From Phytoseiulus persimilis (taxonomy: Eukaryota > Arthropoda > Arachnida > Mesostigmata > Phytoseiidae): 64,000 bases of DNA. The DNA lies in NCBI GenBank assembly GCA_037576195.1, contig CM075102.1, positions 45,814,745 to 45,878,744 on the forward strand, in the 5' to 3' direction. How positions within the stretch are numbered: position 1 is the stretch's first letter; every line of letters begins with the position of its first letter. The translations under genes were made by a program, and so were the position numbers. The notes below the pieces were generated by a model. It saw only the letters and a list, made by a program, of their open reading frames with translations, did not search any database and was not told the DNA's origin. This document shows positions 5,530 to 47,067 of this stretch, piece after piece.

Positions 5530-14081
<8,552 letters not shown>

Positions 14082-17000
14082 AAGCCTTCTCCGCTTCCCT
14101 CTGTTGAGAGACAGCGGAGCTCCCTCGTGGAAAATGAATTCGTTGTCTGCAATGATGCCAAGTGACTTCAACTTACTACGTAATGTAATGCAATGCCAAC
14201 ACGACGAAGACGAAACATGGAACGCAGATATGCTGAAGACGACGGGACGACTGTTATCCAACCTTTTTTCGGAAAGATTGATTGCCACCTGAGACAATTG
14301 GGGGAATTTCTTTGACTGAACTTTTTAATATAAATTGGTCATCTTTATAACGCTATAGGAATGGCGCGATCGATTCTCATGAACTCTTCACAGGCGACGG
14401 GTCCGTTAACTAGCTGTGCTTCTTCTACGGCTTCCATTCGTTTCCCCCATTGTCAGTCCCGGTTCCCGGAGTAAAGGCCTTATTTACTGACCGAGGAATT
14501 CGCACACGGCCGTCATCGTCCATGGATCGCTATCGATCTGTGGGGAAGACTGCTGCTGCGCGGAAACAACTTCCCGGTTTCAAACAGTCACTCGATAAAC
14601 CTGCGGTGGGGGAAGTAGATAGCGAAACAGCATGCCGAGTCGCTTCATCCGATCGTGCACAACTCCGGCGGACATTTTATTCTGTCGCGCAGCGCTGAGA
14701 ATATGACCATCGAAGTCACCATTTTACAAGCCACGCACCTGTGAACTGAGACAGCAATATTTCTCTCTCGGAGGGACTTGAAATATCCTCGAGCATGCAG
14801 AGCGAACCCACGCTGAGCCAACGGACAGGAATAGGAAGAAACCCCTAGCGACGGCCACGCGAAATTTCCGCGACCGCTTCAAAAAGGAGTTTCGTGTATT
14901 TTGAGTCTACAGTATATACACTTGGAACACCTCCTCACCTACAGCGCATCCACAGTGCAAAAGTTGTAGGTTATTTCGATACACTGCTGCTACCATGAAC
15001 ACATCGAAACACCTACCACGTATTGAATTCCGCCTCCGCTATCAAGAGCCGAATCAACCCGCGAAACCAAGTAATTCAGCGTATTCCTGATGAGTTCAGC
15101 GGCGAATAATGACAGTTGTAGCGCATGAACAAATCAATCTAACGTGCTCAAACAAGAAAATCGATGAAGCAATCCGTTGGTGATAATTGGATACAACTTC
15201 TCTGAATTCGATGACGGCCGTTGGGCGGACAATTGAGCTAAGTTCCGGTGACTGCAGCCATTTCTCGAAGAGACTAATCTAGAGCAAGAAAGTCCTCAGT
15301 GACAACCTCCTGATCATAGTTTTAGACGTCCAGTGCAAATCATTCATCATTCGAAGCAAACCCGGGATCTCGCCCCGGTTGCTTTTGGTGCTTCCGTTCT
15401 CCCCGAGGACGGTCAAAAACGCCTGCGTCAGAATTTCACCGCGAATCGGGAGATCGCCGGTGTTCTCAGGCCCTGTCCTTGGAATCGAGTTCGGCGCTGT
15501 GAGCCCCACCGGCTTAGTGAAAGCAATCGGCGACGACACGGTGCTAGTAGCTGACTACTTCTGTCTGGTCAACAGAAGTGCTCAGCTGGATGTCGATCGC
15601 GTCTTGTTCTCGATTCCTCGAGAAGAGCATTCCTACACTCGTAGACACTTTCATGCCGTTTTCTTTTGCCCGATCATTCCAGTCCCTGATCCGCCGCTTC
15701 TGTTAGCAAAACATGGCCATTGGATCGTCGTGTTTCTCTCTTCTGATCTGAAAGCCACCGAGGATTCTGGTTCGTGAATGGAATGATGTCATCAGTGCGT
15801 GCTGCTTTCACACGAACACATACGACTTCGACAGTGCGAGCGCGGATTTGATGTTGGGCGGACGAGTTCCGAGTGGTTCGGCCGCGAGACTCTCTTGTGG
15901 TCTCGCTGCAAAATCATTTCAAGCTTACCTGGCAAGGAGATAGCGAGAACTACGAATAAATTCCTTACGACGTGGTTTCACATTCCTCTGTGTGGATGGA
16001 TACAATATTACTGTCGAGACGTAATTATTTAACCTCCCTTCCTCCTATTATATGGATATATACACGCGAACATGAAGAGAGTTTGAATAAAATGATTGTT
16101 TTCCAGAGGCGCTTGTGTTATGTCTGATCCGGAAACACACTCGATAGACCGAGCAGAGTGTTCTGATCGCCATTAGTTACGGTTCTGAGGCAAGTGAGTT
16201 AGGCTGCGCCAGGCGTATGGCCGAGTGAGGCCGAATCGGAAAGGCTCGAGACTCGAGAGGAAGTCACCACCGAATGACATTCCAAGGTCTCGGATCAGCT
16301 GGGCACACGTTTTTATTTTTAACTCATCGTTTCGCGCCTTGACATTCCGAAGCGAAATCTGATCTCGACCTGTCTTCCTATGACATCGCTCGCCTGTCTA
16401 CGTACTTGATTTTTCTTTTCTTTCATTTCGATCTTCCATATGCACATTTCTCTTCGGCCCAGACCTTCCCATCCACTACAGAGACCGTAGAATTGCGGAA
16501 TAAATCATCATCGAAGAACGTCCGCTTGACAACCTCCGTCCACCTCAGAATTTATTAAGACGTCAGTATTTACAGTGCAGTACAAAGGAACATTGATTGA
16601 ACGAATGATCGTTTGTAAGTGACTTTTTCTACGGCTTGCCGAGTTGGACACAGCGAACGTCCGATTTCCGGGAGAATCAAACTTCTGTTCGCTTCGCTCA
16701 AAACTTTTGCAGGAGTTGTGGGATTCTTCACTGGGGTCGTTTTTGAGCGTCGTTCACTCCCTCTCAGGGCGCCACCATTCCTAAGATAAACTACCATCGA
16801 CCAAGTTAACACAACTACGAGGAACAGACGTCCCTGATTTATTTCTTAGTCGAATCCTGAGGCTTTCGGCTTTCTTGTCTGGGTGAACCGAGAGTTCAGG
16901 TGATGAATTATAAGTCTAAAGGTGAAGTCGATGAAAGTTTGTCTTGGTTTGTCGCCGATTAGTTTCCTTGTAGCTGAGTTCCTGAGCCGCGGGCTTGAAC

Positions 17001-31855: not shown

Positions 31856-34800
31856 ATGTCGAGTGCTGCAGAACATCCCGCTGAATTGAACTCACCAAGT
31901 AAGCGCAGATTTCTGTCAAGTGTTCGTTCCGAAATCCCGGTACCCACTCGCAAGACTCACGTTCATGCGACTCCCAGAGAAACAAACTGTCATCGTGGAC
32001 CTCAGAAGGGAGATGGATGGAACGAACACACCATTGAAACGAATTCTCTTCGTGAATAGTCGTCTCCACAGCTAATCTTTCGGGAATTTCACTGACAAAC
32101 AAATAGTTACGTGGCTGATAGATGTTTCCATGACCGTTACGTCTACGGTTTGTTGCCCTCAACCCTCGATTGTGCTGTGCTGTGGGCGGAATCGCACAGA
32201 TACTCGACGATCTCATTTTTGACGCTATTTTCTTGCGTCCCACCGAATCTCCTTGGATTCTCGGATGTGATCGGAAGAGTCAAGTAAAAGTACATCTCGT
32301 GGGAGGATTTGAGAGAGCCAGCTGTGCGCGTTGCTCAAGTAGCTTGGTAGTCACGTCGCTCGATGAAGCGGCTCTCTGAGTAACAGCGTTTGGGATGTTG
32401 AAGCCAGCAAGGTTCGACGTTCCGAGGATTCATGCCATAGATGCTGAAAGATCTAATGCAGACACCATCGATTTTCTGTGGAAACATCTGGGGCTCAATC
32501 GGCAAGTCCTCGAGGAAATTTCGAATCCTGGAAAAGCTGTTTGCAGCCGGAGTTATCGTCTCCCAATCAGCTAGAAGCTTTGATACGTCTAGATCGCAGT
32601 ATTGAGTCATAGAACTTCTGTGTTCACTTGTATGTATACGCGTTCTATGCCGTCTGTCGCTAAGGCTTACGGTTGCGCCGTTGGAGACAGAATATGACCA
32701 TGTCGTGATTCCGATAGAGCGCAGACAGGACTTCAGTTCTGGGGAACTGATTGGGGGGAAGTGAGAGAACAAGTGTTCGTTTCTTACAAATCACCCCAAA
32801 AGTTCCTCCGAATCTCCCATTGCGCACGGAATGCGGCCACTGCTTTTATCAAAGACCGGTGAATTTCGGTGAACTCTCAACTTCCCCCTAGTTCATGACC
32901 GATAATGAGCCAGGGAGAGGAATCGAATGCATGTTCTCCATTCGGGTTCGCCCATCCTGCAAGACTGAATCAGATTGCTCGAACCATTGCGCGTGTACAG
33001 ATAGACGGAAGATAAATGCTGATTATTCGAGGACTTTCACCTCCAGGAAACAGAATCTCGTTCGGGGCTCCATCACGCCCGCTTATTTGAGCCGATGCGA
33101 AATGGGAGCCTCGATGATAATAAAAAGCCGTGACACTGTCTTTAGGTCTATTCCCGAGCGCTTTGATCTCTCAGTTCATCTGCATCACAGAGTCACCAGA
33201 GGGATCGAGGCGGTCAGGACTATTTTGGACGCAATAGTTCAGCGTAGAGCTATATCGCTAGCTGCGAAGACCAATTCGCGAATTCGCCGTCTATAGGAAG
33301 TCCACCAGAAGTAGAACATTTCCGAAAAGCAGCGGGAAAACTGGGGCGACGACGGAGAACTCACCGCCGCTGAGGTTTCCACGCACAAGTATGTAGTTTC
33401 TTCAGTACGGATGAAAATCCGCGCCTAGCTCGCTGACTAAGATAGGACCTCGACATCCGGTTTTCGTTTCCGATCGCCTGGCACGATTCAACGGTGACCA
33501 GATCAGCCAGCTTCTCGCAGAGCTTGGAGTGTTCCGTCTCCGAGTTCGGTTTGTACAAGCCTGCTTTCGCGGAGCTCGGTGTATTGCTATCATCCTCATA
33601 TCGGCTGACGCGGTTTTGCCGTGAGCGGACCACAGTGTTTTCGAAGCGGGGCCAGTCGACAGAGCCGATGCGACTATTTGTCGGCGAGGAGAAGTGATCT
33701 CTACCGGGATGCGCGCTGAGAGTTCTCAGACCAGCCGCGTTCGGATGGTGTTCGGAGAGGGTCTGTTCACAATGATGAGTACGTGTGCTAGTGCGAATTT
33801 CCGTTTGCACGGACTCATTGCGCAAGTCTAATCCCTCAGTGTAGATGTGAAGACTCGACCTGACCAGCTCCAATCATTGTCATGGGCTGAAACTGCAGCA
33901 GCTCTGAGCTATCAGCCGATCTACGTGATTCGTCGAGTTTTTCTGACCAATATTCCATCGTCTGACGATTCGGAGAGAGTTCGGCAGCTGTGTTCTTCCG
34001 CATCGAAACTGAGCTGTTACCAAACCGTAACCCTCGCACTCGCTGGAGCGGGGATCGGATCAGTCCATTGTCAAATACGTTGTGCTCGAACACTCTGCAA
34101 ATTAACGCGATGGCTTTGTTATTGTGATCGCTCGTCCAAGCCAAGCACCGAATCAAGGAAGTTCGACAACACACCTGTGTCGCGTCCGGCTCTCGCAGAT
34201 GCAGAGATTCTGTGAAATATTTCTAAGCGAGTAGACTAACCGCCGAATCTGTTCTGGGAGAGCTCTCGGCTCAATGATCCAACTGTCTTTTTATTTACAG
34301 CTGCGACTGAATCCTCGGGTGTAGCTAATGCCTTGGAGCAAGAAGAACTCCGGGCCCAGCTAGCCGAGCTCGAGAGAGAGATGGAAACTCTGAGAGCTGT
34401 CTTGCAATCGAAGCAAGAGAAAGCCCAAGAGATCCGCAGAAAACTCGGAATCAGTCCACTTAGCGAGCTCAAAAGTGATATCGAACAGTCGTTCAAGAAC
34501 ATTCAAGACACGCAGGCGTAAGTTGTATCTTCAGAATCAATATTTCAGATCGCCCCTCCAACCCCGCTTGTTTTAACTAACCAAGATTCTGGCGGACGTT
34601 CATTACTGATGAGAACGCTTTTTTCCCTCCTGCGATCAGCTATCAAAAAACTACGGACGTCGTGAAAGTAGCAGGCGAGAAAACAACTCAGTTATTCGGG
34701 AGTATTGGACGCAAACTCGGTGAAATGAAAAACTCGCCAACCTACCGCTCTATCGAAGAACGCATGGGATCTGCCTACACCAACGTTAGGTGAGTTGATT

Positions 34801-35714: not shown

Positions 35715-35720
35715 TTTATT
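35715..35720 (-). promoter_or_regulatory. Candidate poly(A) signal for the DEG/ENaC gene
   Basis: Plus-strand TTTATT, that is AATAAA on the minus strand, 209 nt downstream of the channel stop codon at 35929. It lies between two convergent genes. Confidence 0.4.
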
Positions 35721-35928: not shown

Positions 35929-38234
35929 CTAGATGTTGAGAAAAGTGTTCTGGAGGCGATGGATGAGATTGAGAATTGTGTCCGGAGCCGACCCCATGAT
36001 GGACACGTCGAGCCACATCGTGATGTGACCACTCAGATAAAGGATGAAGTCTGAAAGCTGAATCAGTGATTGCATCAGTTGCATTCTTCACTCTGGAGAA
36101 AGCCCGATAATGTCTTATTTGTTATGTGACCTTGAATGCACCTTGATTTTTGCGAAGTTCGTCACTTTTTTGACTGTGGTTGACCCCAGGAAAACTCTTA
36201 TCTCGCATTGATCTGGACTGGAAGAGATAACTCAACGTGAATTGGTAGTAGCATCGATCGTGTCCGATTTTCTCTCGAGAAGTTCTGTGAAGTTCCAGGG
36301 AATTTTGGAGCGATACGCTCCCTGAGTTTAGGCCACGAGAGTCCACGTGCGTACGACATCCGGAATTCGAATAACAGGGTGCTTTTATCCATGAGTTCAT
36401 TCCATTGGTTTTGCAAACGCAAGGAGATCCTCGTTCAGTGTGTCCCGATTCATACTTAGGCGAACCGTCCAGAAGATTCAAGTAGCCTATCTGATGCATC
36501 AGGCCTCGGTAACGCTTGTCGTTGCATCCTTGAGTACAGCGCCCCTGGCAGCCGACGGACCACTTGTTTTGGATCATGCGATCGATGCATTTCACTTGCG
36601 AGGAAAAAATGGTTTTTGTAAGTTCACCCGTCCCACGATATATATTCGCGTCTCGTCAGAAGCATACCTAGGGGAGAGGGCGAGACTACCATGTCCTCTG
36701 TCCCCCAAGACTCTTCGATCGTACTGGGACGGTTGGATTATCCTACTTGAAACGATGAGAGAGAGGGACCCGGGACGGTGCAGTCTGATCAGGAACAACC
36801 TAACAGCTTTGAAAACTACGTTGAGTGCGTCATAGAGAGCATCCGGCAGCCCATGTTATACGTACGATGGGTAACATAGTCACACACGTTTCCGGTCATT
36901 TTGTGCTTGACTGCATACATCTTGGAGAAACATCCACAGTGTTTGAGCCACGTCGCTGCCACGCAGGCTTCACAGCATTCTTCTTCTTGAATGACATGCC
37001 GTTGATACAAGTGTTCGTTTTTTCCATCCTTCTCGTAGTCAACGCATCCAGTTTCGTACGGCTTCGGCAAGGATTCAAGGTGGGTCTGCAACGAAGCGTT
37101 CTGCTTAAAAATGGTGTCACCAGAACCTCCGTGAGAGAAACAGAAGCAGAGACCAACAACAGGAGAGCTGTGAGCCGTGCTCGGTGACGATCCACTACCG
37201 ACGATACCTGAGCGACCGTCAAGTAGTACTTCCTGCCCGGCTCGAAACGGAACGAGTGAATTATGCCAGACGTGTATCTGTTTTGCTCGTGAACTAGTGC
37301 CGTCATCGTCGCACCTCCGCCGACCTTGGCCCCGAAGCTCCTCACTTTGAATCTCAGATCTGGAAAAGTTGCAGAAACGTCTCACTCCCGCCCAGCCTCA
37401 CCGACGTTCGTCTCACGTGGACACCGAGTGAGCTTCGATGGCGAATGTTGGTAGAACTCACTGTATTTGAACTGTTCTTTACACTTCCAGAACGCATGAT
37501 CGGGCAGCGTTGTCATGTCCAACGTATAACAAGATCCAGTCTTTACGTAGGTGAATGTTCTATTCCACAAATCGGTACAATCGAACGATTCACAGAGATC
37601 CGAGCGAGATTCCATCATGCAATCGGTGACGACTTCTTCGGGCAGGTAAGTGAAGTTTATAATGAACTTCATCAAGACGATGTCGTTCCCAACCATGGAT
37701 TCCTACGAGTTAAAAGCTGCCTTCAAATGTAAATTCGTGTCGGTAAGATGGAGAAGCATGTGAGAGAAGGGCGTCAGCTGAACCTTACAAAATTAGGCTC
37801 TCGGTTGGCGCAGTTCTCGCCCAGGTAAGTCGAACAGATGTCGCTGTAGTTGATTCTGTAGGAAAGACTCGCGGTTCAGGAAATTCACGGATTCGAGCTG
37901 AGCGGAGACGTAGGTTATGAATTAGGGTCAAGGATGGCTACGATAAATATTATTAGGAACGTCTCCAACGAGGAGAGACACTCTTGCCGACATATCTCTC
38001 GTCGTCATGTACGATTCCTTTGCCAAACGTATTCTACCCGTCAAGAAGACAAGCAGTTGTCGCTGGGAAGGCGGCCCCGTCCATTGAGTCCTGTGAGTAG
38101 TAGACCGTGGTGGGATATCTTCTGTACTCGTAGAACTCGCGGATGCAGCTCACGCCGCATGCAATTATCGTACTCAGCAGGAGACACTGCAGCAGCGAAG
38201 TAAGACCTGAGTAGAACCAGACTTGCGTGCCTGC
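35929..38234 (-). CDS. DEG/ENaC channel, second unit (probably fused to the first)
   Basis: Exons in transcript order: 38234-38038, 37855-37789, 37702-37417, 37359-37208, 37085-36866, about 36594-36456, an unresolved segment, and 36050-35929 with stop TAG at 35929-35931. The first six joins agree in phase. The first exon holds transmembrane helix 1 (VWFYSGLTSLLQCLLLST) followed by YRRYPTTV and FPATTACLL, the equivalent of the family FPAVTICN. The ectodomain shows NYSDICSTYLGENC, GSCYTLD, the LPKPYETGCVDY block and a Cys-rich segment (CCEACVAATWLKHCGC). The last exon encodes helix 2, but with LSGHITMWLDVSI in place of the family GG..GL..GxS pore motif. DEG/ENaC proteins are trimeric amiloride-sensitive sodium channels with cytoplasmic ends; in arthropods they include the pickpocket family. 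The 36594 acceptor is AAG. The exon carrying the strand before helix 2 was not identified, so a partly degenerate copy is possible. Confidence 0.85.
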
Positions 38235-38351
38235 CTGACGCGAACAATCTTCTGCTCGATGTTCAAGCCCGTCGTGCGACCGCTCAGCGTGCGAATGACG
38301 ACACTCATCAATGGGCCCTCGGCGACTCGAGACGTAGATTCGATGACTCAC

Positions 38352-41300
38352 AGTTTTGATCGATTTGTGGACAACGAGGTACCGCATCATCCCCAAAATT
38401 GAGAACGTCTCGTAGGCTTTCATCAGGAGTTTTCTTGCGCAGACAGCTCCGACTTTGTAAAAAGACAACCCCATCCAGAAGCCGATGTAGCCTCCGATTA
38501 TCCCGAGGATCTGTGTCGACTTGGGATTGAGAGAGAAATTCATTTTAACACGCGTCCAGGAATACTTCCTCGACCCCGTCCGCAGCCGCTGAGAGACTCA
38601 CAGTCAGCATGGGAACGAAGTGTAGAACATCGACTTGACGGGACGTTACGATGACTTTGACGTTCACGTACTTCAGACTGGAATTGACAAGAATGAATTG
38701 GGAGGAAGGATTCCGCTGTCCTGGAACCTCCATTCGAAATGGATGTCTCTGTCTCTCGAAGAAGCGGGGAGCAATGAATGATTCAAAAGCTCACTCGCTG
38801 TCATCGGACCCGATCTGACGCCAGATGGACTGCGTTGCTTTGTACGTGTCTTCTCTGCAGGCGGCGGGACATTCCGTCGGACAAATCGTCGTGTACATTT
38901 CCCGAGCATGAGCTGAATAAGAAGAGGTGTTCCTGCTTTGCATTCAGTGTATTATTTCGGAATTGGGGAGCGGCACCAGGTCGGCCGAACCTTGCACGCA
39001 GTTTTCAGTGGCATTCGCGTCGCAGACGAGCCCGCTAATTTTATTCCGGTAGATGTAGTTCGACATGAGGCACCCGCAAACTCGGAGAACCACCTGCATC
39101 TTGCAGTCTTCATTGCACATCTGGCGCAGAAAATCTCTAGGTTATCTTACGATGGGTTCCCCTCCCACGATACACGATTCGCCGTTTCGAAGAGAATTCC
39201 CGACTCGAAGATTAGAAGAGGGGAGGTTTACTCACGTCTCTGGACCATCTGACCGTGTATCCGTCGTCAAATGTTTTCATTTCGCTGTAGTCTCGGCACA
39301 TCGTGTCGTAAGGCGGCGGCAGGGTTCGCGTTCCTGTAATTTAATTATTCCGCTCAGGATGCAATCCTCGAATAACGCAGAAGCGCTGCGCAGGAATATC
39401 GGATTGGTTGCTCGACATGATATGTGCTTACCTTCCTGAATTACTCCGAATACGTAGTCCCCCGATGGGCGCAGGACGATCGCGTGTCTCTGGCCAGCCG
39501 TGTTCGTATCCACATAATGGAAACCGAGAGTCAGCTCGTAGGGGGACGCTTGTATGTGCTCATCATCCGGCCAAGATACCATCATATTCATCTCTTGTGA
39601 AACCATGAAGCAGGGATTTTGAGCCAAATGTCAGAAATATTTTCACAAAGAAGGAACCCTCTTCATGCCCTCGGCAACCCATGGATCTTTTAATAAAACG
39701 GATACGCTTGCTCTCGCCCAAAGCAGGCTGTAGCGAGTAAGTTCACTGATCAGTTCGGACAATTTGGGTCCGCATTTCCCGCTCGGCTCGTGCCAGTTTC
39801 CGCAGCGCGTGAGCAAGTGGATCGCGAGCAGAAGGAGGTTGCCAAGGCTTGCTCTGAAGCGTTCGTTATGCGCTCACCGAATGCGATGATATTCTGATGA
39901 ACTGCCTCCATTTTCGTGTCAGTTCGCCAGTTCATTGTGTAGCACATGTGAGTCGGCAATAGAGAGTACGACACCTGAGTGATGCTATAAAACAAGAGCT
40001 GTGGAGTTGTACGTGCCTATATTCCGTCCTGATTGTGCCTGAATATTCGGGTTCCTGCGCAGGACCAATCTCCGCACAGGGCTGATTCCAACGCCTTAAA
40101 GCGGGAAGCTACGGACCGAACGGTGCGGGAGCCAGAAACGGATTTCTTGATTTTATCCAGTAGTTGGTAATTGCCGGCGGATGAGTGGAAAAGGCCTCCC
40201 TCGGGGTTGCTCGTGACGAGATGGTCTTCTGAGATGAATCGGGTTGCTGAAGTCGTATCACAGCCATTTCAAACGCAGCGGTGTTTGCGATGGGATCAGC
40301 CCTGAGCGGGAATCGGCCTCACGCAGTCCTCATCGCATGCTTCGAGTAATACTGCTCGAACCGCGTCGGGTTCAGCTTGACTTTGCTGAGCAAAGTGGGA
40401 TGTTTGGGACGACGCAAACTCACTCAGTATTTAGGTAGAACTCGAAGTAGTATTGCGCGGGGTTCACGAAACCGATCTGTAGGATGTTGGTCGGGTCCAG
40501 AGCGATGTCAGAGAGATTTCCTTCGGTCATAACGATTCGTTGCACCAGTGACATCTTGCGGGTAATATAAAGTATCGTATTATGTCACGATCGTTCCGAG
40601 GTTTCTCTTCCGACACTCGCCGATGAGTTTATGGGGGTCGGAGCACTATTTCCCAATATTTTTCCATGAGCTGGGCGTACAGAGAGTCGCGGCAAGGAAG
40701 TGCGGGCCCGTCAAAGGTTCGAGTCGATTATTTCAAGCAGAATCGAGAAATAGCGGGATTCGAGTTCTTCGAAACCTCCCTTGGTCTGGAGTCTCGCGAG
40801 GAAATTCGCGCGCTGCATCCAAAGGACCACAACTCGACAAGGTACCTCACCCTTCAAATCAACAGCCAGCACGCTCTAGAACAGGACTTTCCGATCTCTC
40901 GCCCTGTCGGAACCACTTCCAAATTTATCGACTGCTCTCCGGCCCACGGGATGTCACCTAATCAGCCTCAATGAATGAGGCTCTTCGGATTCGAGCTTTT
41001 GGAGTCATCCCGAGTCGAAGTTGTAGATTATGTTTTGTCTATTCCAGAGGTCGTCAAATTCTTCCGACATTGCTGTCGGGTGCGGTACTTCGGGGTGTCT
41101 CGACACACAGTTCGACGACCCCTGGTCTATTCCTATCTTCCGGCGACAATTCCTACAACGCGACGCGCAGTTCAACTCATGGGGATTTGCCTCAGAGTCT
41201 GGTTATGACCTCTATTCGAATATCGGAGGGTGGGAGAGGAGAGCAAGAGAATACGTATTTGGAACGCAGTTCAGAACTTCGGAAACGCCAGTCTGCCTTC

Positions 41301-42019
41301 CTTTCGGTCGACGCGTGCTCCCTGTCCCGTCTCGTTCTCCTCATAGGGAGGAAATGTTCCAGATTGAATTGGAGCAATAGTTCATCCGGAGAAGGAATGC
41401 ATTGGGATCTCCAATCAGGCACACAGTATCGACTAAAGCATCGAGCTATTGTTTCGCGCAGCGCACTATGAGTTGGAGATCTCCGCGGTCCATTTCGGCC
41501 GTGATACGCCTGGATACCTTCTGGCCCCCGAGAATCGCGACCGAGCCCGCTTTTTGGCCGAGGCCCAGGCTCCACTCTGGGGATCGTTGCTCTGGCGGCA
41601 GGAAAATTTGAGCGAAATTTCCCAATACATACCTCAACCGTGTCGTTGCATGCGTCTTCAAAACGCTCGCACAGCTTCGTCTTGTCAATCCTGCGTAGCG
41701 GAGCACTCGAAAGTAAAAAAATGCGTCCTTGAATCCGTTTGGTTCCTACATAAGTCGGAGGGACAGTCGGTTTACCAGTTTGTTATGCAGAATGACAACC
41801 CAGGATACAACAGGGTTCCTTCGCCTTCCGTTCGAGCGTCGACAGTACTTGGATATTTCCAGTAGTCCATCATGACCTAGATATGAGGAACGAAAATTTA
41901 CATCGGGCTCGATTCTCCCGAAGTTGAGATCACAGCCACTCACCTGCAATCCTTGGTAGAAAAATGCTGCCACTGAGCAGAGGAACATGAAGATGCGCAG
42001 AATGCTTGAGGCGTCCAGC
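38352..42019 (-). CDS. DEG/ENaC (pickpocket-like) channel, first unit, 5' partial
   Basis: Exons in transcript order: 42019-41944, 41876-41776, 41432 to about 41255, 40554-40424, 39984-39878, 39593-39432, 39333-39236, 39120-38991, 38912-38795, 38752-38602, 38510-38352. Phases agree at the joins, although the third exon's donor is uncertain. Helix 1 is in the first exon (ILRIFMFLCSVAAFFYQG), followed by DYWKYPSTV and LYPGLSFC. Later come HMCYTMN, YELTLGFHY, the diagnostic TRTLPPPYDTMCRDY, the Cys-rich MCNEDCKMQVVLRVCGC and CPTECPAACREDTY blocks, and helix 2 with IIGGYIGFWMGLS, retaining the GxS selectivity motif. The intron 38753-38794 would be only 42 nt. The cytoplasmic N-terminus and start codon lie upstream of 42019 and were not found. 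The frame continues past 38352 into the next unit, see findings. This is a membrane cation channel; ligand or stimulus cannot be told from sequence. Confidence 0.93.
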
Positions 42020-42737
42020 CTGAAATCATTCAGAGCATAGATCCAATAAATCGGATTGGGGGAAACATCCAATGCTCAGTGAAGATTTCCTCGGACGATC
42101 CCCTGCATCATCGAATTCAACAGGAGGAGAACATCTGCGACAAACTCGATGTAAGGCTGATTCGCGATTTCATCCTCCAGCCGACCCACCATTTTCGGAT
42201 GCTGTGGATAATAGCAACCATCGTCACCGACCAGTTCACTCGCGGCAGTGCGGTCCGCAAGACGAGCCACCTTGATGCATGGCGCACTCAAGGGTGGATT
42301 CGTTGAAACAAATATCGAGTGCATACATCGCATACATCCCGAGTGGAGTTGGAGCACGAGTTTGTCGTGACGGGTACCATATAGCGTGACTATTAAAAGC
42401 AAGGGGCATTTCTCTGACGCGGCCCACATTACTGCGTCAAAATTCAGCGGCGATAATTGATGGTGAGACGTATCATTTACCGATGTGAACGTACCAAAAC
42501 GGGACCAGAAATAATGACGGAGTGGCCGGACTCGAAGCGCCAGGGGCGTGACAGTTCCCTGTCCGTGAAGAGTTGTGAAGCAATGGAATCTTCGTTAGAG
42601 GAGGGACTCGATGAGTTTAACGAAGGGAAATGAGCTCTCCAGCTTGTAGAATAGAAAGGGATTGCAAAAAATTACGGTCGTTGCAATTTTCTGTATTCGA
42701 GAATGCCGAATCCCTCATTCGACTTGAAATCAATCCA

Positions 42738-43454
42738 TCAATTTCCCTGTATTGCTCTCTGAAATTGCCTCTCCAAGCCCTCCTCAGGCCACAGTCGTAT
42801 CTCCAGTTTGAGGCCAACGAAACCAATCCAAGTCACCAAACCACTCGCAGCCAATAAGTTCACAAAATCACATTGAGCTTCTTCTTTTCTATGGCCACCA
42901 AGGGTGAACTTCAGGGGCGTGTCACCGAATACCGGCACCTCCAGGTGCGCTGGACGACTCATCTGAATATTCATGCTTTCACTGCAATGCATGGGTCCGG
43001 ATTCGAGCAAGATATTTATTTCTGCGCCTGGTGGCGCGTAAAGAGGTCGGGCTATTTCAATCGAGTTGACTTGCACCCCCAAATGTCTCGGGAGGAAAGC
43101 ACCAAGTACATGGCGAAACACTTCCAAGGCTTTACTCCGATCCCGCCCCTGTTTCACGTACTCCAACTGCTTCCGACGGGAGGCCAGGTACGCATCGAGG
43201 TCGAAATATTTGCTCAGACCATACGCTTCGTAGAACCAAGCTTGGAATTTCTTTGCTCTACTCAGCGTTTCGTTCGTCTTCCCCGTCAGCTCGTGCTCAG
43301 CGGATAATTTCGCGTCAAGTTCTTCTTTCTGCTCCTCGAGCCTTCCAACGATTCTCAGGATCATAATGTGCGTTCTGTGCTTGAGCCAGTTCCTATCGGA
43401 GGCTTCGAGTTGACCTATCTTTATAGCTATTGGCTCGAAGATGTGCGCCATCAT
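42738..43454 (-). CDS. Unclassified 238-codon ORF
   Basis: I do not recognise this protein. It has an N-terminal hydrophobic/charged stretch, a heptad-rich segment (RLEEQKEELDAKL), an aromatic stretch (FQAWFYEAYGLSKYFDL), a basic segment, and a C-terminal half with mixed beta-like hydrophobic pattern. Upstream of the first Met the same frame stays open to 43688 except for one TGA at 43497-43499, and a possible 60-nt GT-AG intron (roughly 43489-43548) would remove that stop in phase. It could be a real gene, or the coiled-coil plus RRM-like first ORF of an old non-LTR retrotransposon; no reverse transcriptase is visible nearby. It sits between the channel gene and the P450, on the channel strand. 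Confidence 0.4.
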   Translation of the reverse strand: MMAHIFEPIAIKIGQLEASDRNWLKHRTHIMILRIVGRLEEQKEELDAKLSAEHELTGKTNETLSRAKKFQAWFYEAYGLSKYFDLDAYLASRRKQLEYVKQGRDRSKALEVFRHVLGAFLPRHLGVQVNSIEIARPLYAPPGAEINILLESGPMHCSESMNIQMSRPAHLEVPVFGDTPLKFTLGGHRKEEAQCDFVNLLAASGLVTWIGFVGLKLEIRLWPEEGLERQFQRAIQGN

Positions 43455-43688
43455 GACTCCGAATTCGTTGTTTGTGCCCTCCAGCTTGATTGCTTTTCAA
43501 GTTTGCCAGGTTTCCATGGGATCGTGGCCCATTCCCCTGTTGACGTAAATGTCGTTCCCTGTGGCTTTGCTGCACTCTGCTAGTACTTCGTCAATTATGC
43601 AACGAATTTCGAGGCCCCGGTTTGTCCTCAGACTTCGCTCGTGATGAACCGGAAACGCTTCGCTTTTTTCCCCTTCGACGAATGGCTC

Positions 43689-45480
43689 TCAAATTCACGG
43701 GAGAAGCCCTCATTCAATTTCGGCATGGAACCCTTACCGATCCATATGCTTGTCATTTATCAGACCTCTCATTTACAGCCCAAATAACACCTACCTCATG
43801 TCGTCCGAATAGCGGTTTCCGGATTTAACTGGAGAAGTATGCGCTCTCGAGAAATGGGTGCTTCTCGTTATAACACCCTCCAGAGCCCGAAAAATCGCCT
43901 ACATTATATGCGTGAGCTGGTGACCTGACATACTCTCCAGTTTCTACGATCTGTAACGAATTTTCTCTCTAATCTGGGGTTCAACCCTCGATGTTCCCTC
44001 AGCAGAATGTGGTCGGGATGGCACACACAGGAAATGCACAGGACTCGTTCACCACAAATGCATCCTCCCTAGGGAAGTCAGCCCGGAAAATGATGATTCC
44101 TGTCCGATTCGAATTAGGATCATTGATATTCGATTGGTTCCCTATATCAGGCCTTGAGACATTCCTCGAATTCCAGCGTTCCTCTCTCGCTCCCATGTTA
44201 GGGATCAATATTTCCCGACTCAGATATCTCAGAAATCATGAATGTTGGGAGGGAATTTCTGGGAACAATTCTCGCTCAGAACACCTAAACCTCCTGATCC
44301 TAGGAGCTTTTGGAGGAGTTTCCTTGGAGAATGAGAAAGTTTGGCGCGGAATCTCGGGAGCCAGTGAGTGAACGAGGTCGGCTACAAGCCCGTCATGTGT
44401 ATTTACGGATTGCGACGGAGGAAGCATCCATAACGAAGTTATGTCTGTCTTAGTTGACGCACCATAGCTGATCAACAGCTCCAGCTGAATAATTTACCAA
44501 TCGGAAGTTTGGCTGAGAGATTTGTTCAGACGTCAGTGGTTGCGTCCAGCAGAAGGAGTGAATTCGTTGCAGGAGAGCAGCAGTCGAGCCATTCCCATAA
44601 TGAATGAGCACTCCAGTGTAAAGCTTTCCTCGACCGAGGGCGTTTCAATTCGACGGAAACCTCGTTAGCTCTCACTCACTCGAAGAGCAGGGAAGCCGGA
44701 TTCGAAAATGGCTTTCAAATATGAGCAAGCGTTCGAGGAAACGCGTTCGAGAGCTTTCGCTTCGCTCGACGAGGGCGTTGCTGAAATGCGATCTCCCGCG
44801 TATCGGAAAAAGAGAATCATGAACTTTCTCCAGCCCATCAGTCAAGAAGGTATGGTAGTGATCATCCATCTTCAAGGAATCCCCGGAACATTTTCTGGGC
44901 GTCATGTTCATCCCGGAGTCTCTCGGGGTTTCTATGTGTGAGAAGTGGACGGCGATTCGCGGGCACTGCGAGCACAGAAAATGTTTCTAATGTCTACCAC
45001 ATCGTTACACGCCGGCCAGAGATCAGCCGCACGACCGCCACCATTAGTCGTCGCCGCCGTTACGCACGGAAGAGCCTGTTTCTCGAATAGATCGGAACTA
45101 TCAGATGGAACCTTCCCTCGATGGTACTTCAACGCCGTCGTTAGTATCAAGAAAGAGTCATGGAGATGATTTCCTCGAGTTTGGCAGAATTATCATGGAA
45201 TCAAATTTCGGAACAGCTGATGCGCACTGCTGTTTTCGGATAACGAGAGAGGGAGAGGGAGACACTTCCATTCCCCACTGTCGCCTGAATCACAGAATAA
45301 TCGACGGAGTCACTAAACCATCATGCCCTTGGGTCCCTTCCAAGAGAGAACACCGGAGCCAGCAGAGGGAGAGAGGTGGAAATCACGCTCTCTGATTGCG
45401 AGCCGAATACTTTCGGTCAGGACGGCGTGAAGTCTCAAACAGTACTGATCAAGTTGAGTCGCTAACTGCCGCACGCCGAA
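43689..45480. other. Intergenic region upstream of the P450 gene
   Basis: No recognised gene. It should contain the promoter of the plus-strand P450. A plus-strand frame starting at 44708 with a good start context runs 48 codons to a GTATGG donor-like site, but no partner exon was found. Confidence 0.4.
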
Positions 45481-47067
45481 ATGGCGTGGGCATGGTATGC
45501 TTCGGACCTTGTGTCTGTTTTTGTGATCATTTCGCTCATGCTTGCCGTGAAACTTATTCGACCCCAGTGGGAGCACCACCGCTACATCAAGAAATTCGGC
45601 GGGCGGTACGATCCATTCTACGGGTTGGTCTTGGCTCAGGTGGTTTTCACCGCTCTCAGAGACATGGTGCGCGGCGGCGATCTGTACACCTCGACGTTCC
45701 GTTCCCTGGTACAGCTAGCAGAGGAGGAGAAAGCGCATTTTGTAGTTTACAGCGGATTGGAGGCGAACATTGCCATATACCGAGCTGAGGAAGTCGAAGC
45801 GTTCGTGAACCACAGTGAGAACATCAGCAAGCCCTTCATAGTCTACGACATGATCGAACCGTGGCTCAAGCGCGGTTTGCTCACCAGCACCGGGAAAAAA
45901 TGGAAAACGCGCAGGAAAATGCTGACGCCCGCGTTCCACTTCAAGATCCTTGACCACTTCGCAGCATTGATGAACGGTCACGCCAGAACTTTCACGAAAC
46001 AGCTCGCTTCGAGATCGAATCACGATATCATACCGGATGTTCAGACTCTCACTCTGAAAATCATCTGTGAAACCGTGATGGGAGTGAATCTAGATACCTA
46101 CGATGAAGCAGCGACGCGGGACTACCTGGACGCCATGCGAAGGATGGGAGAATTGCTGCTGATTCGAGTGGTCTCGCCCTATCAGTGGCCGGAATGGCTT
46201 CACCGCTTGACTCCGAGCGGTTCTGAAACCTACGATGTCGTGAGACGGCTCCACCACTTCAGCCGGACCGTGATTGAGGAGAGGCAAGCCCACTTTGAGA
46301 GCGACCCAGACAAACTGGAGAAACTCTTGCAGCTCGACATCGATGAGCCAGCCAAGTGCCAGAAACCGTTCTTGGATCTGTTGCTGAAGGAACACTTCAA
46401 GAATAGCATCGAGTTCTCGATCGACGACATTCGAGAGGAGGTCGACACGTTCATGTTTGAAGGACACGACACGACAGCCATGGCTCTGTCGTTCGCTTTG
46501 TTCCTCATCGGACACCATCCGGAAGTTCAGAGAAAAATCCACGCGGAGCTCGATGACGTTCTTGGCGTAGACAACCCCGACAGCGATATCAGTCTCTACC
46601 AGCTCCGAAAACTGAAGTATCTCGAGTGTGTCACCAAAGAAAGCCTGCGTGTTTACCCCTCCATACCTGCCATCGGTCGGAAAATCACCAAGGAGTATCA
46701 ACTGAATGGAAAAACAGTCCCCAAAGGAAATAATGTGTACTGCTTCATATACGCGCTGCATCGTGATCCGAGATATTTTCCGCAGCCGGAACGCTTCGAT
46801 CCAGATCGCTTTCTACCACAAGAATCTATCGGCAGGCATCCATTCGCATTCTTACCTTTCTCAGCTGGAACGAGAAATTGTATAGGACAACGGTTTGCGA
46901 TGCAAGAGGAAAAACTACTCCTAGCTTGGATTCTGCGGAAATATAGCCTCGAGTCATTGATGTCACGTGATGACATCAAGCTGTACACCGAGTTGGTTCT
47001 GAGGTCGAAGAACGGTCTACCTGTGAAATTCATTCCACGCTCTCGCGATTCCGAAGCTAACAAGTGA
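45481..47067 (+). CDS. Cytochrome P450, CYP4 family, single exon
   Basis: An uninterrupted 528-residue frame, normal length for a microsomal P450. It starts with a hydrophobic signal anchor (residues about 8-26, ending before IRPQWEHH). Diagnostic motifs are all present: WKTRRKMLTPAFHF helix C region; I-helix FEGHDTTA (residues 326-333) with the EVDTFMFEGHDTT context and Glu typical of CYP4; ExxR in helix K (E387, R390); the PERFDPDRF block; and the heme loop FSAGTRNCIGQRF with ligand Cys467. CYP4 enzymes in the endoplasmic reticulum membrane oxidise fatty acids, hormones or xenobiotics using cytochrome P450 reductase; the substrate here cannot be inferred. Closest known types are CYP4C/CYP4V-like. 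There is no intron, although many CYP4 genes are intron-rich. The ATG is preceded by an in-frame-neutral leader with no other likely start. Confidence 0.96.
   Translation: MAWAWYASDLVSVFVIISLMLAVKLIRPQWEHHRYIKKFGGRYDPFYGLVLAQVVFTALRDMVRGGDLYTSTFRSLVQLAEEEKAHFVVYSGLEANIAIYRAEEVEAFVNHSENISKPFIVYDMIEPWLKRGLLTSTGKKWKTRRKMLTPAFHFKILDHFAALMNGHARTFTKQLASRSNHDIIPDVQTLTLKIICETVMGVNLDTYDEAATRDYLDAMRRMGELLLIRVVSPYQWPEWLHRLTPSGSETYDVVRRLHHFSRTVIEERQAHFESDPDKLEKLLQLDIDEPAKCQKPFLDLLLKEHFKNSIEFSIDDIREEVDTFMFEGHDTTAMALSFALFLIGHHPEVQRKIHAELDDVLGVDNPDSDISLYQLRKLKYLECVTKESLRVYPSIPAIGRKITKEYQLNGKTVPKGNNVYCFIYALHRDPRYFPQPERFDPDRFLPQESIGRHPFAFLPFSAGTRNCIGQRFAMQEEKLLLAWILRKYSLESLMSRDDIKLYTELVLRSKNGLPVKFIPRSRDSEANK

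Follow-up and report, generated by a model that had tools for sequence, protein, structure and literature searches.

A predicted natural tandem DEG/ENaC subunit encoded in one open frame, with two paralogous loci, in the mite Phytoseiulus persimilis

Introduction

Channel subunits of the DEG/ENaC/ASIC family (Pfam accession number, PF00858), which include the pickpocket proteins of arthropods, consist of two membrane helices placed around a cysteine-rich ectodomain. To our knowledge, the described subunits of this family carry one such unit per chain. Here, we analyze a locus of the mite Phytoseiulus persimilis in which two units of the same build follow each other on the minus strand within one open frame. 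The locus lies in a stretch of 64,000 nucleotides (hereafter, the window; G000:C2:45814745-45878744 of a 181-Mb assembly) and is labelled C2; positions given without a label are those of the window. It differs from the known subunits in having two units per frame, and in a second unit that carries Asp-Val-Ser (DVS) in its filter and has no clear HG motif. We give a probability of about 0.73 to the reading that a single gene here encodes a natural tandem DEG/ENaC subunit and that splicing removes the joining intron.

K2P channels, two-pore channels and the four-domain Na and Ca channels likewise repeat a channel unit along a single chain. These fill a tetramer-like pore evenly, whereas a chain of two units does not tile a trimer. 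Within the DEG/ENaC family itself, the closest counterparts are engineered concatemeric ASIC and ENaC constructs, in which, according to the parts of the literature consulted, subunits are likewise joined through their cytoplasmic ends; those are laboratory constructs, whereas the tandem predicted here would be natural and would join two different units. Another comparison is offered by the Drosophila genes llz and CheB42a, described in passages of PMC2827562 as an operon-like pair in which a DEG/ENaC gene is co-expressed with its neighbour; that pair consists of two genes, whereas the two channel units considered here lie within one open frame. Among the matches listed in a search of openly licensed literature there was no report of a natural DEG/ENaC tandem (two-domain entries of sequence databases were not looked up), and the word "fused" is absent from the passages on DEG/ENaC genes in Aculops (PMC7738191) and Varroa (PMC11534843).

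Results

Exons were placed by reading frame, splice sites and comparison with a paralogous locus, C4 (see below). The resulting minus-strand model (42221-35929) comprises 20 coding exons and 822 codons with one terminal stop, has GT-AG borders in 19 of 19 introns, and holds both DEG/ENaC units in a single frame without internal stop or frameshift. An earlier note on this DNA had predicted a tandem channel subunit; as a gene-model prediction, this is borne out by the intact 20-exon frame, a strong donor and a switch in codon use at the joint, and two paralogous loci.

The joint itself has the layout that had been proposed. The exon at 38352-38510 (minus strand, as are all exons below) encodes helix 2 of unit 1, with the filter sequence Gly-Leu-Ser (GLS), and continues with coding-like codon use for 37 codons past the filter, up to the donor. 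The exon at 38038-38234, which possibly starts at 38186, encodes helix 1 of unit 2 and matches PF00858 at profile positions 27-73. Through both, the minus strand is open from 38597 to 38037 (187 codons), and the 303-nt linker remained open throughout in 22 of 2000 dinucleotide shuffles. The joining intron (38235-38351, 117 nt, GT-AG) runs from a donor at 38351 (ACT/GTGAGT, the slash marking the exon border) to an acceptor at 38235 (GCGTCAG/G). Because both sites are in phase 0 and 117 nt apart, the frame is kept whether the intron is spliced or not. Three splice forms stay in frame: 822 aa with acceptor 38235, 806 aa with acceptor 38187 (which makes the intron 38351-38187, or 165 nt), and 861 aa with the joining intron retained. 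Neither a stop nor an AATAAA/ATTAAA hexamer separates the units, again as the earlier note had it; the scan of the minus strand gave a hexamer at 39045 and then none until 35720, where one (35715-35720) lies past the stop of unit 2. The start codon said to be missing ahead of unit 2 is missing indeed, as there is no in-frame ATG in 38351-38187 and the nearest upstream ATGs belong to the helix-2 exon.

Splice sites were scored with a matrix built on the three tandem loci, from which 34 other introns were used. Donor 38351 is strong at 8.7 bits, the 34 other donors scoring from -1.8 to 10.8 when left out one at a time. Acceptor 38235 scores 5.55 bits and the second phase-0 acceptor, 38187, scores 6.7 bits; either yields the fusion. 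A codon-composition score, for which seven long open frames of this genome served as coding examples and 34 introns as the contrast, changes sharply at the donor. Among coding windows, the 37 codons before it rank at the 77.5 percentile and the 39 codons of 38351-38235 at the 0.1 percentile; among open intronic windows, the latter rank at the 22.4 percentile. Codon use between the two acceptors (38234-38187) tends towards coding, at percentile 43.0 of coding windows and 93.2 of intronic windows. From before to after the donor, the percentile among coding windows falls from 91.4 to 3.0 at the paralogous locus C3 and from 35.5 to 7.3 at C4; the residues past the C4 acceptor reach 91.9, four known-exon controls lying between 42.2 and 87.8. 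Since these scores are inflated by membrane-helix composition, and some stretches have only 11 to 18 codons, we take them as support and not as proof. Read-through of 38351-38235 as the main product was rejected on its intron-like codon use. One polypeptide had been expected with or without splicing; the frame is open in both forms, but codon use disfavours the unspliced one, so that the form open straight through is probably not the main product.

Membership of the family was judged by PF00858 (ASC; cut-off, 23.6 bits). Unit 1 of C2 scores 72.6 bits over profile positions 23-446, and unit 1 chains match at all three loci. Unit 2 chains match at two of the three (best E value, 3.6e-25). The whole unit 2 chain of C2 has no Pfam hit and is more diverged than unit 1; its helix-1 pieces score 20.7 to 26.6 bits, or up to 29.8 bits when helix 2 of unit 1 is included, and a 407-aa joined piece finds nothing in Pfam, though shorter pieces match. 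Profiles made from the three unit 1 and the three unit 2 chains match structures of ASIC5, ASIC1, ENaC and FaNaC, with best values of 3.6e-8 (ASIC5) and 4.5e-6 (ENaC beta), and they match each other over 363 columns (probability, 99.8). By alignment to family members, which covers both helices and the conserved cysteines, each unit has a cysteine-rich ectodomain flanked by two membrane helices. In a hydropathy scan, both helices of unit 1 and the first helix of unit 2 rise above threshold; helix 2 of unit 2 stays below it. The filter in helix 2 reads GLS in unit 1 at three of three loci, and DVS (C2), GVS (C3) and GIS (C4) in unit 2. The last exon of C2 (36057-35929) is thus set apart by Asp-Val-Ser, unit 1 and both paralogues of unit 2 having Gly-x-Ser at this place.

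The genome was searched with each unit for further pairs, and the pair recurs at C3:4958575-4962334 and C4:5872265-5876540. Spliced alignment with hand-set weights and C2 as query gave unit 1 followed by unit 2 on the same strand at both; it picked a GC donor for the C3 junction, for which the GT donor was taken from a separate matrix scan. An in-frame, phase-matched splice pair is present at each of the three loci. A phase-matched pair at least as good as the best observed arose in 5 of 2000 dinucleotide-shuffled linkers for C2 (a value that refers to the pair with acceptor 38187, not to the 38235 pair), 90 of 2000 for C3 and 175 of 2000 for C4. The Cys-Gly of the next helix 1 lies 309 nt (C2), 262 nt (C3) and 320 nt (C4) past the filter; other same-strand, end-to-start neighbours have spacings of about 1.4 kb (at C2:7.76 Mb) and about 1.8 kb (at C3:8.14 Mb), a contrast that extends to these two pairs only. 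After splicing, the C2 linker between filter and Cys-Gly has 62 residues with acceptor 38235 or 46 with 38187; with the latter, the joined linkers of C2, C3 and C4 have 46, 47 and 48 residues. The C3 and C4 copies share 29-40% identity with the C2 units, and the three loci do not differ at the cysteines and other landmarks.

A tree of 13 chains gathers the unit 1s of the three loci in one clade (100/100) and their unit 2s in a second (98/99). Both clades branch in the same way, C2 with C4 and C3 outside, with support of 87/81 and 89/91, below the starred level. L005, L008 and L009 were dropped because their longest frames miss the domain, further family loci lie outside the tree, and it carries a long-branch warning, with L007 foremost. 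On the separate clades of unit 1 and unit 2 and their identical branching order, the pair was most likely duplicated as a pair. Two single-unit genes, L007 (G000:C3:17652184; a long branch) and L062 (C1:48788551), group with the tandem units (100/100). The idea that the tail of C3 unit 1 corresponds to the start of C4 unit 2 with a moved intron did not hold up, as 1081 of 5000 shuffles did as well for the part between the junctions alone; the whole joined linkers of C3 and C4 do match (0 of 5000 shuffles as good), with a signal that is mostly helix 1.

Several observations weigh against a single fused chain. With the intron kept, unit 1 of C3 and of C4 meets a stop 38 and 29 codons past the filter, and these values fall inside the 21 to 65 residues at which five single-exon genes end past theirs (helix-2 tails were first sought in the loci by pattern, which gave five places only). 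C4 unit 2 has its own upstream ATG. Comparison of the C2 linker with that of C3 or C4 gave no significant similarity with either acceptor, and the junction phases differ (0, 2 and 0 in C2, C3 and C4). The HG motif, expected before helix 1 in DEG/ENaC subunits according to passages of PMC10148893, is unclear in unit 2, where the Pfam match of C2 starts at 26-27, short of the region; in unit 1 the putative first exon has His-Ser instead. A missing HG motif does not exclude divergent members of the family. Finally, the tandem is a prediction from genomic sequence, and its paralogues come from the same genome.

Part of this evidence fits two close genes, perhaps sharing an operon-like (dicistronic) transcript, with the units translated separately and co-transcription explaining their spacing: the stop that a retained intron gives after unit 1 at C3 and C4, the ATG ahead of C4 unit 2, and the operon-like co-transcription reported in passages of PMC2827562 for the Drosophila gene llz. 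A stop between the units is found at C3 and C4 only with the intron retained, and at C2 in none of the three splice forms examined, so separate translation at C2 would require other exons or internal initiation. Moreover, the ATG-free interval 38351-38187 at C2 offers unit 2 no start, at C3 no ATG occurs from the last stop in the frame of unit 2 up to its helix 1, codon use past the donors is not coding-like, and none of the three linkers contains AATAAA or ATTAAA. We therefore regard separate translation of two close genes as an unlikely explanation.

Another arrangement would make unit 1 a separate gene whose donor at 38351 leads to a tail exon of its own. Unit 2 would then start from a 5′ exon located elsewhere, and the open joint would be accidental or one splice choice among several. 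A donor of at least 5 bits lies between filter and stop in three of three unit 1s, in none of the three unit 2s and in none of the five single-exon genes. However, L062, the one intron-bearing single-unit relative examined, has a 7.85-bit donor after helix 2, so that a donor past helix 2 does not by itself prove fusion, and the intron at this place may be ancestral in the group and older than any fusion. An open interval of 117 nt is, moreover, not rare on its own, and the 5′ and 3′ ends of the transcript are set here by the sequence model. Against this arrangement, all three loci have a short gap past the donor, a tail exon was not recognised, the good acceptors that come next preserve the frame of unit 2, and the pair is still adjacent after two duplications. 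Two independent genes of this kind are thus improbable in our judgement, although at C3 and C4 unit 1 may have a tail exon, or expression may be separate or dicistronic. The region beyond L062 was tried as a fourth tandem and rejected: for neither unit do its next 2240 nt outscore shuffles, whereas the positive controls at C2, C3 and C4 do. A further relative, L004 (G000:C4:4861509-4865576), has a DEG/ENaC match in an intronless frame of about 900 codons, far above one usual unit length.

Decay of the gene pair, or an artefact of assembly, was considered because first-pass exon guesses had hit in-frame stops (TAG at 40019-40017 in unit 1 and TGA near 36235 in unit 2) and because Asp replaces Gly in the filter of C2 unit 2. 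Both stops proved to be intronic in the final model, which is free of internal stops and frameshifts, and were discarded as pseudogene signs; conservation of the cysteines and other landmarks argues against decay, and one assembly error cannot explain the same order at three places. This explanation is highly improbable.

The remaining exons of the preferred one-gene model are as follows. The first coding exon of unit 1 is putative and the least certain of all: 42190-42221 (MVAIIHSIRKW) was chosen by GT-AG borders and phase fit, with a phase-2 donor, and its addition moves the start of the Pfam match to profile position 8 from 26, at 15.6 versus 14.4 bits. It is followed by the exon with helix 1 (41944-42019) and by exons at 41776-41876, 41633-41690, 40424-40554, 39878-39984, 39432-39593, 39236-39333, 38991-39120 and 38795-38912, those at 40424-40554 and 39878-39984 having been placed by comparison with C4; 38602-38677 precedes helix 2. 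In unit 2, the helix-1 exon is followed by exons at 37789-37855, 37462-37702, 37208-37359, 36866-37100 and 36466-36594, and by 36142-36212, which precedes helix 2 and was placed by frame and GT-AG fit. The last exon (35929-36057) encodes helix 2, with DVS replacing GxS, a 23-residue tail and the stop TAG.

Elsewhere in the window, an open frame of 252 codons (42741-43496, minus strand) shares the strand of unit 1, lies directly upstream of it and has no Pfam match at an E value of 0.001. A frame that matches the TPD52 family (34240-34521, plus strand; 59.4 bits) occupies the other strand downstream of the stop of unit 2. An intronless open frame of 533 codons (45466-47067, plus strand) matches cytochrome P450 (PF00067, 334 bits). 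The segment 10001-14000 has a marked AT skew (0.33, 0.32), and no tandem repeat array was found in 9000-15000.

Discussion

A DEG/ENaC subunit has both of its ends in the cytoplasm, and the predicted product would accordingly consist of two complete two-helix units linked cytoplasm-to-cytoplasm. Passages of PMC10148893 describe DEG/ENaC subunits as forming trimers. The linker of 46 or 62 residues, part of which is membrane helix, would be long enough to connect neighbouring subunits, and the chain, if made from one mRNA, may fold as two adjacent subunits of a trimer. The third place would then go to a further DEG/ENaC chain or to one half of another tandem chain. Such a chain would hold unit 1 and unit 2 at 1:1. 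The altered filter of C2 unit 2 suggests that this half might have a regulatory role.

The pair would have formed before the duplications that left three tandem loci in this genome. We lean, by somewhat more than even odds, towards a naturally concatenated DEG/ENaC subfamily that formed once and was kept through at least two deep duplications. Its members would be obligate heteromers with a third partner, in which unlike units hold fixed neighbouring places and one half (here, unit 2) is perhaps regulatory.

If the prediction is true, the tandem poses a testable question of stoichiometry, because chains of two units cannot tile a trimer evenly: either a third partner completes the channel, or halves are shared between channels. 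Physiologists construct concatemers so as to fix the order of subunits; the tandem would be a natural counterpart of these, and three diverged paralogues are available for comparison.

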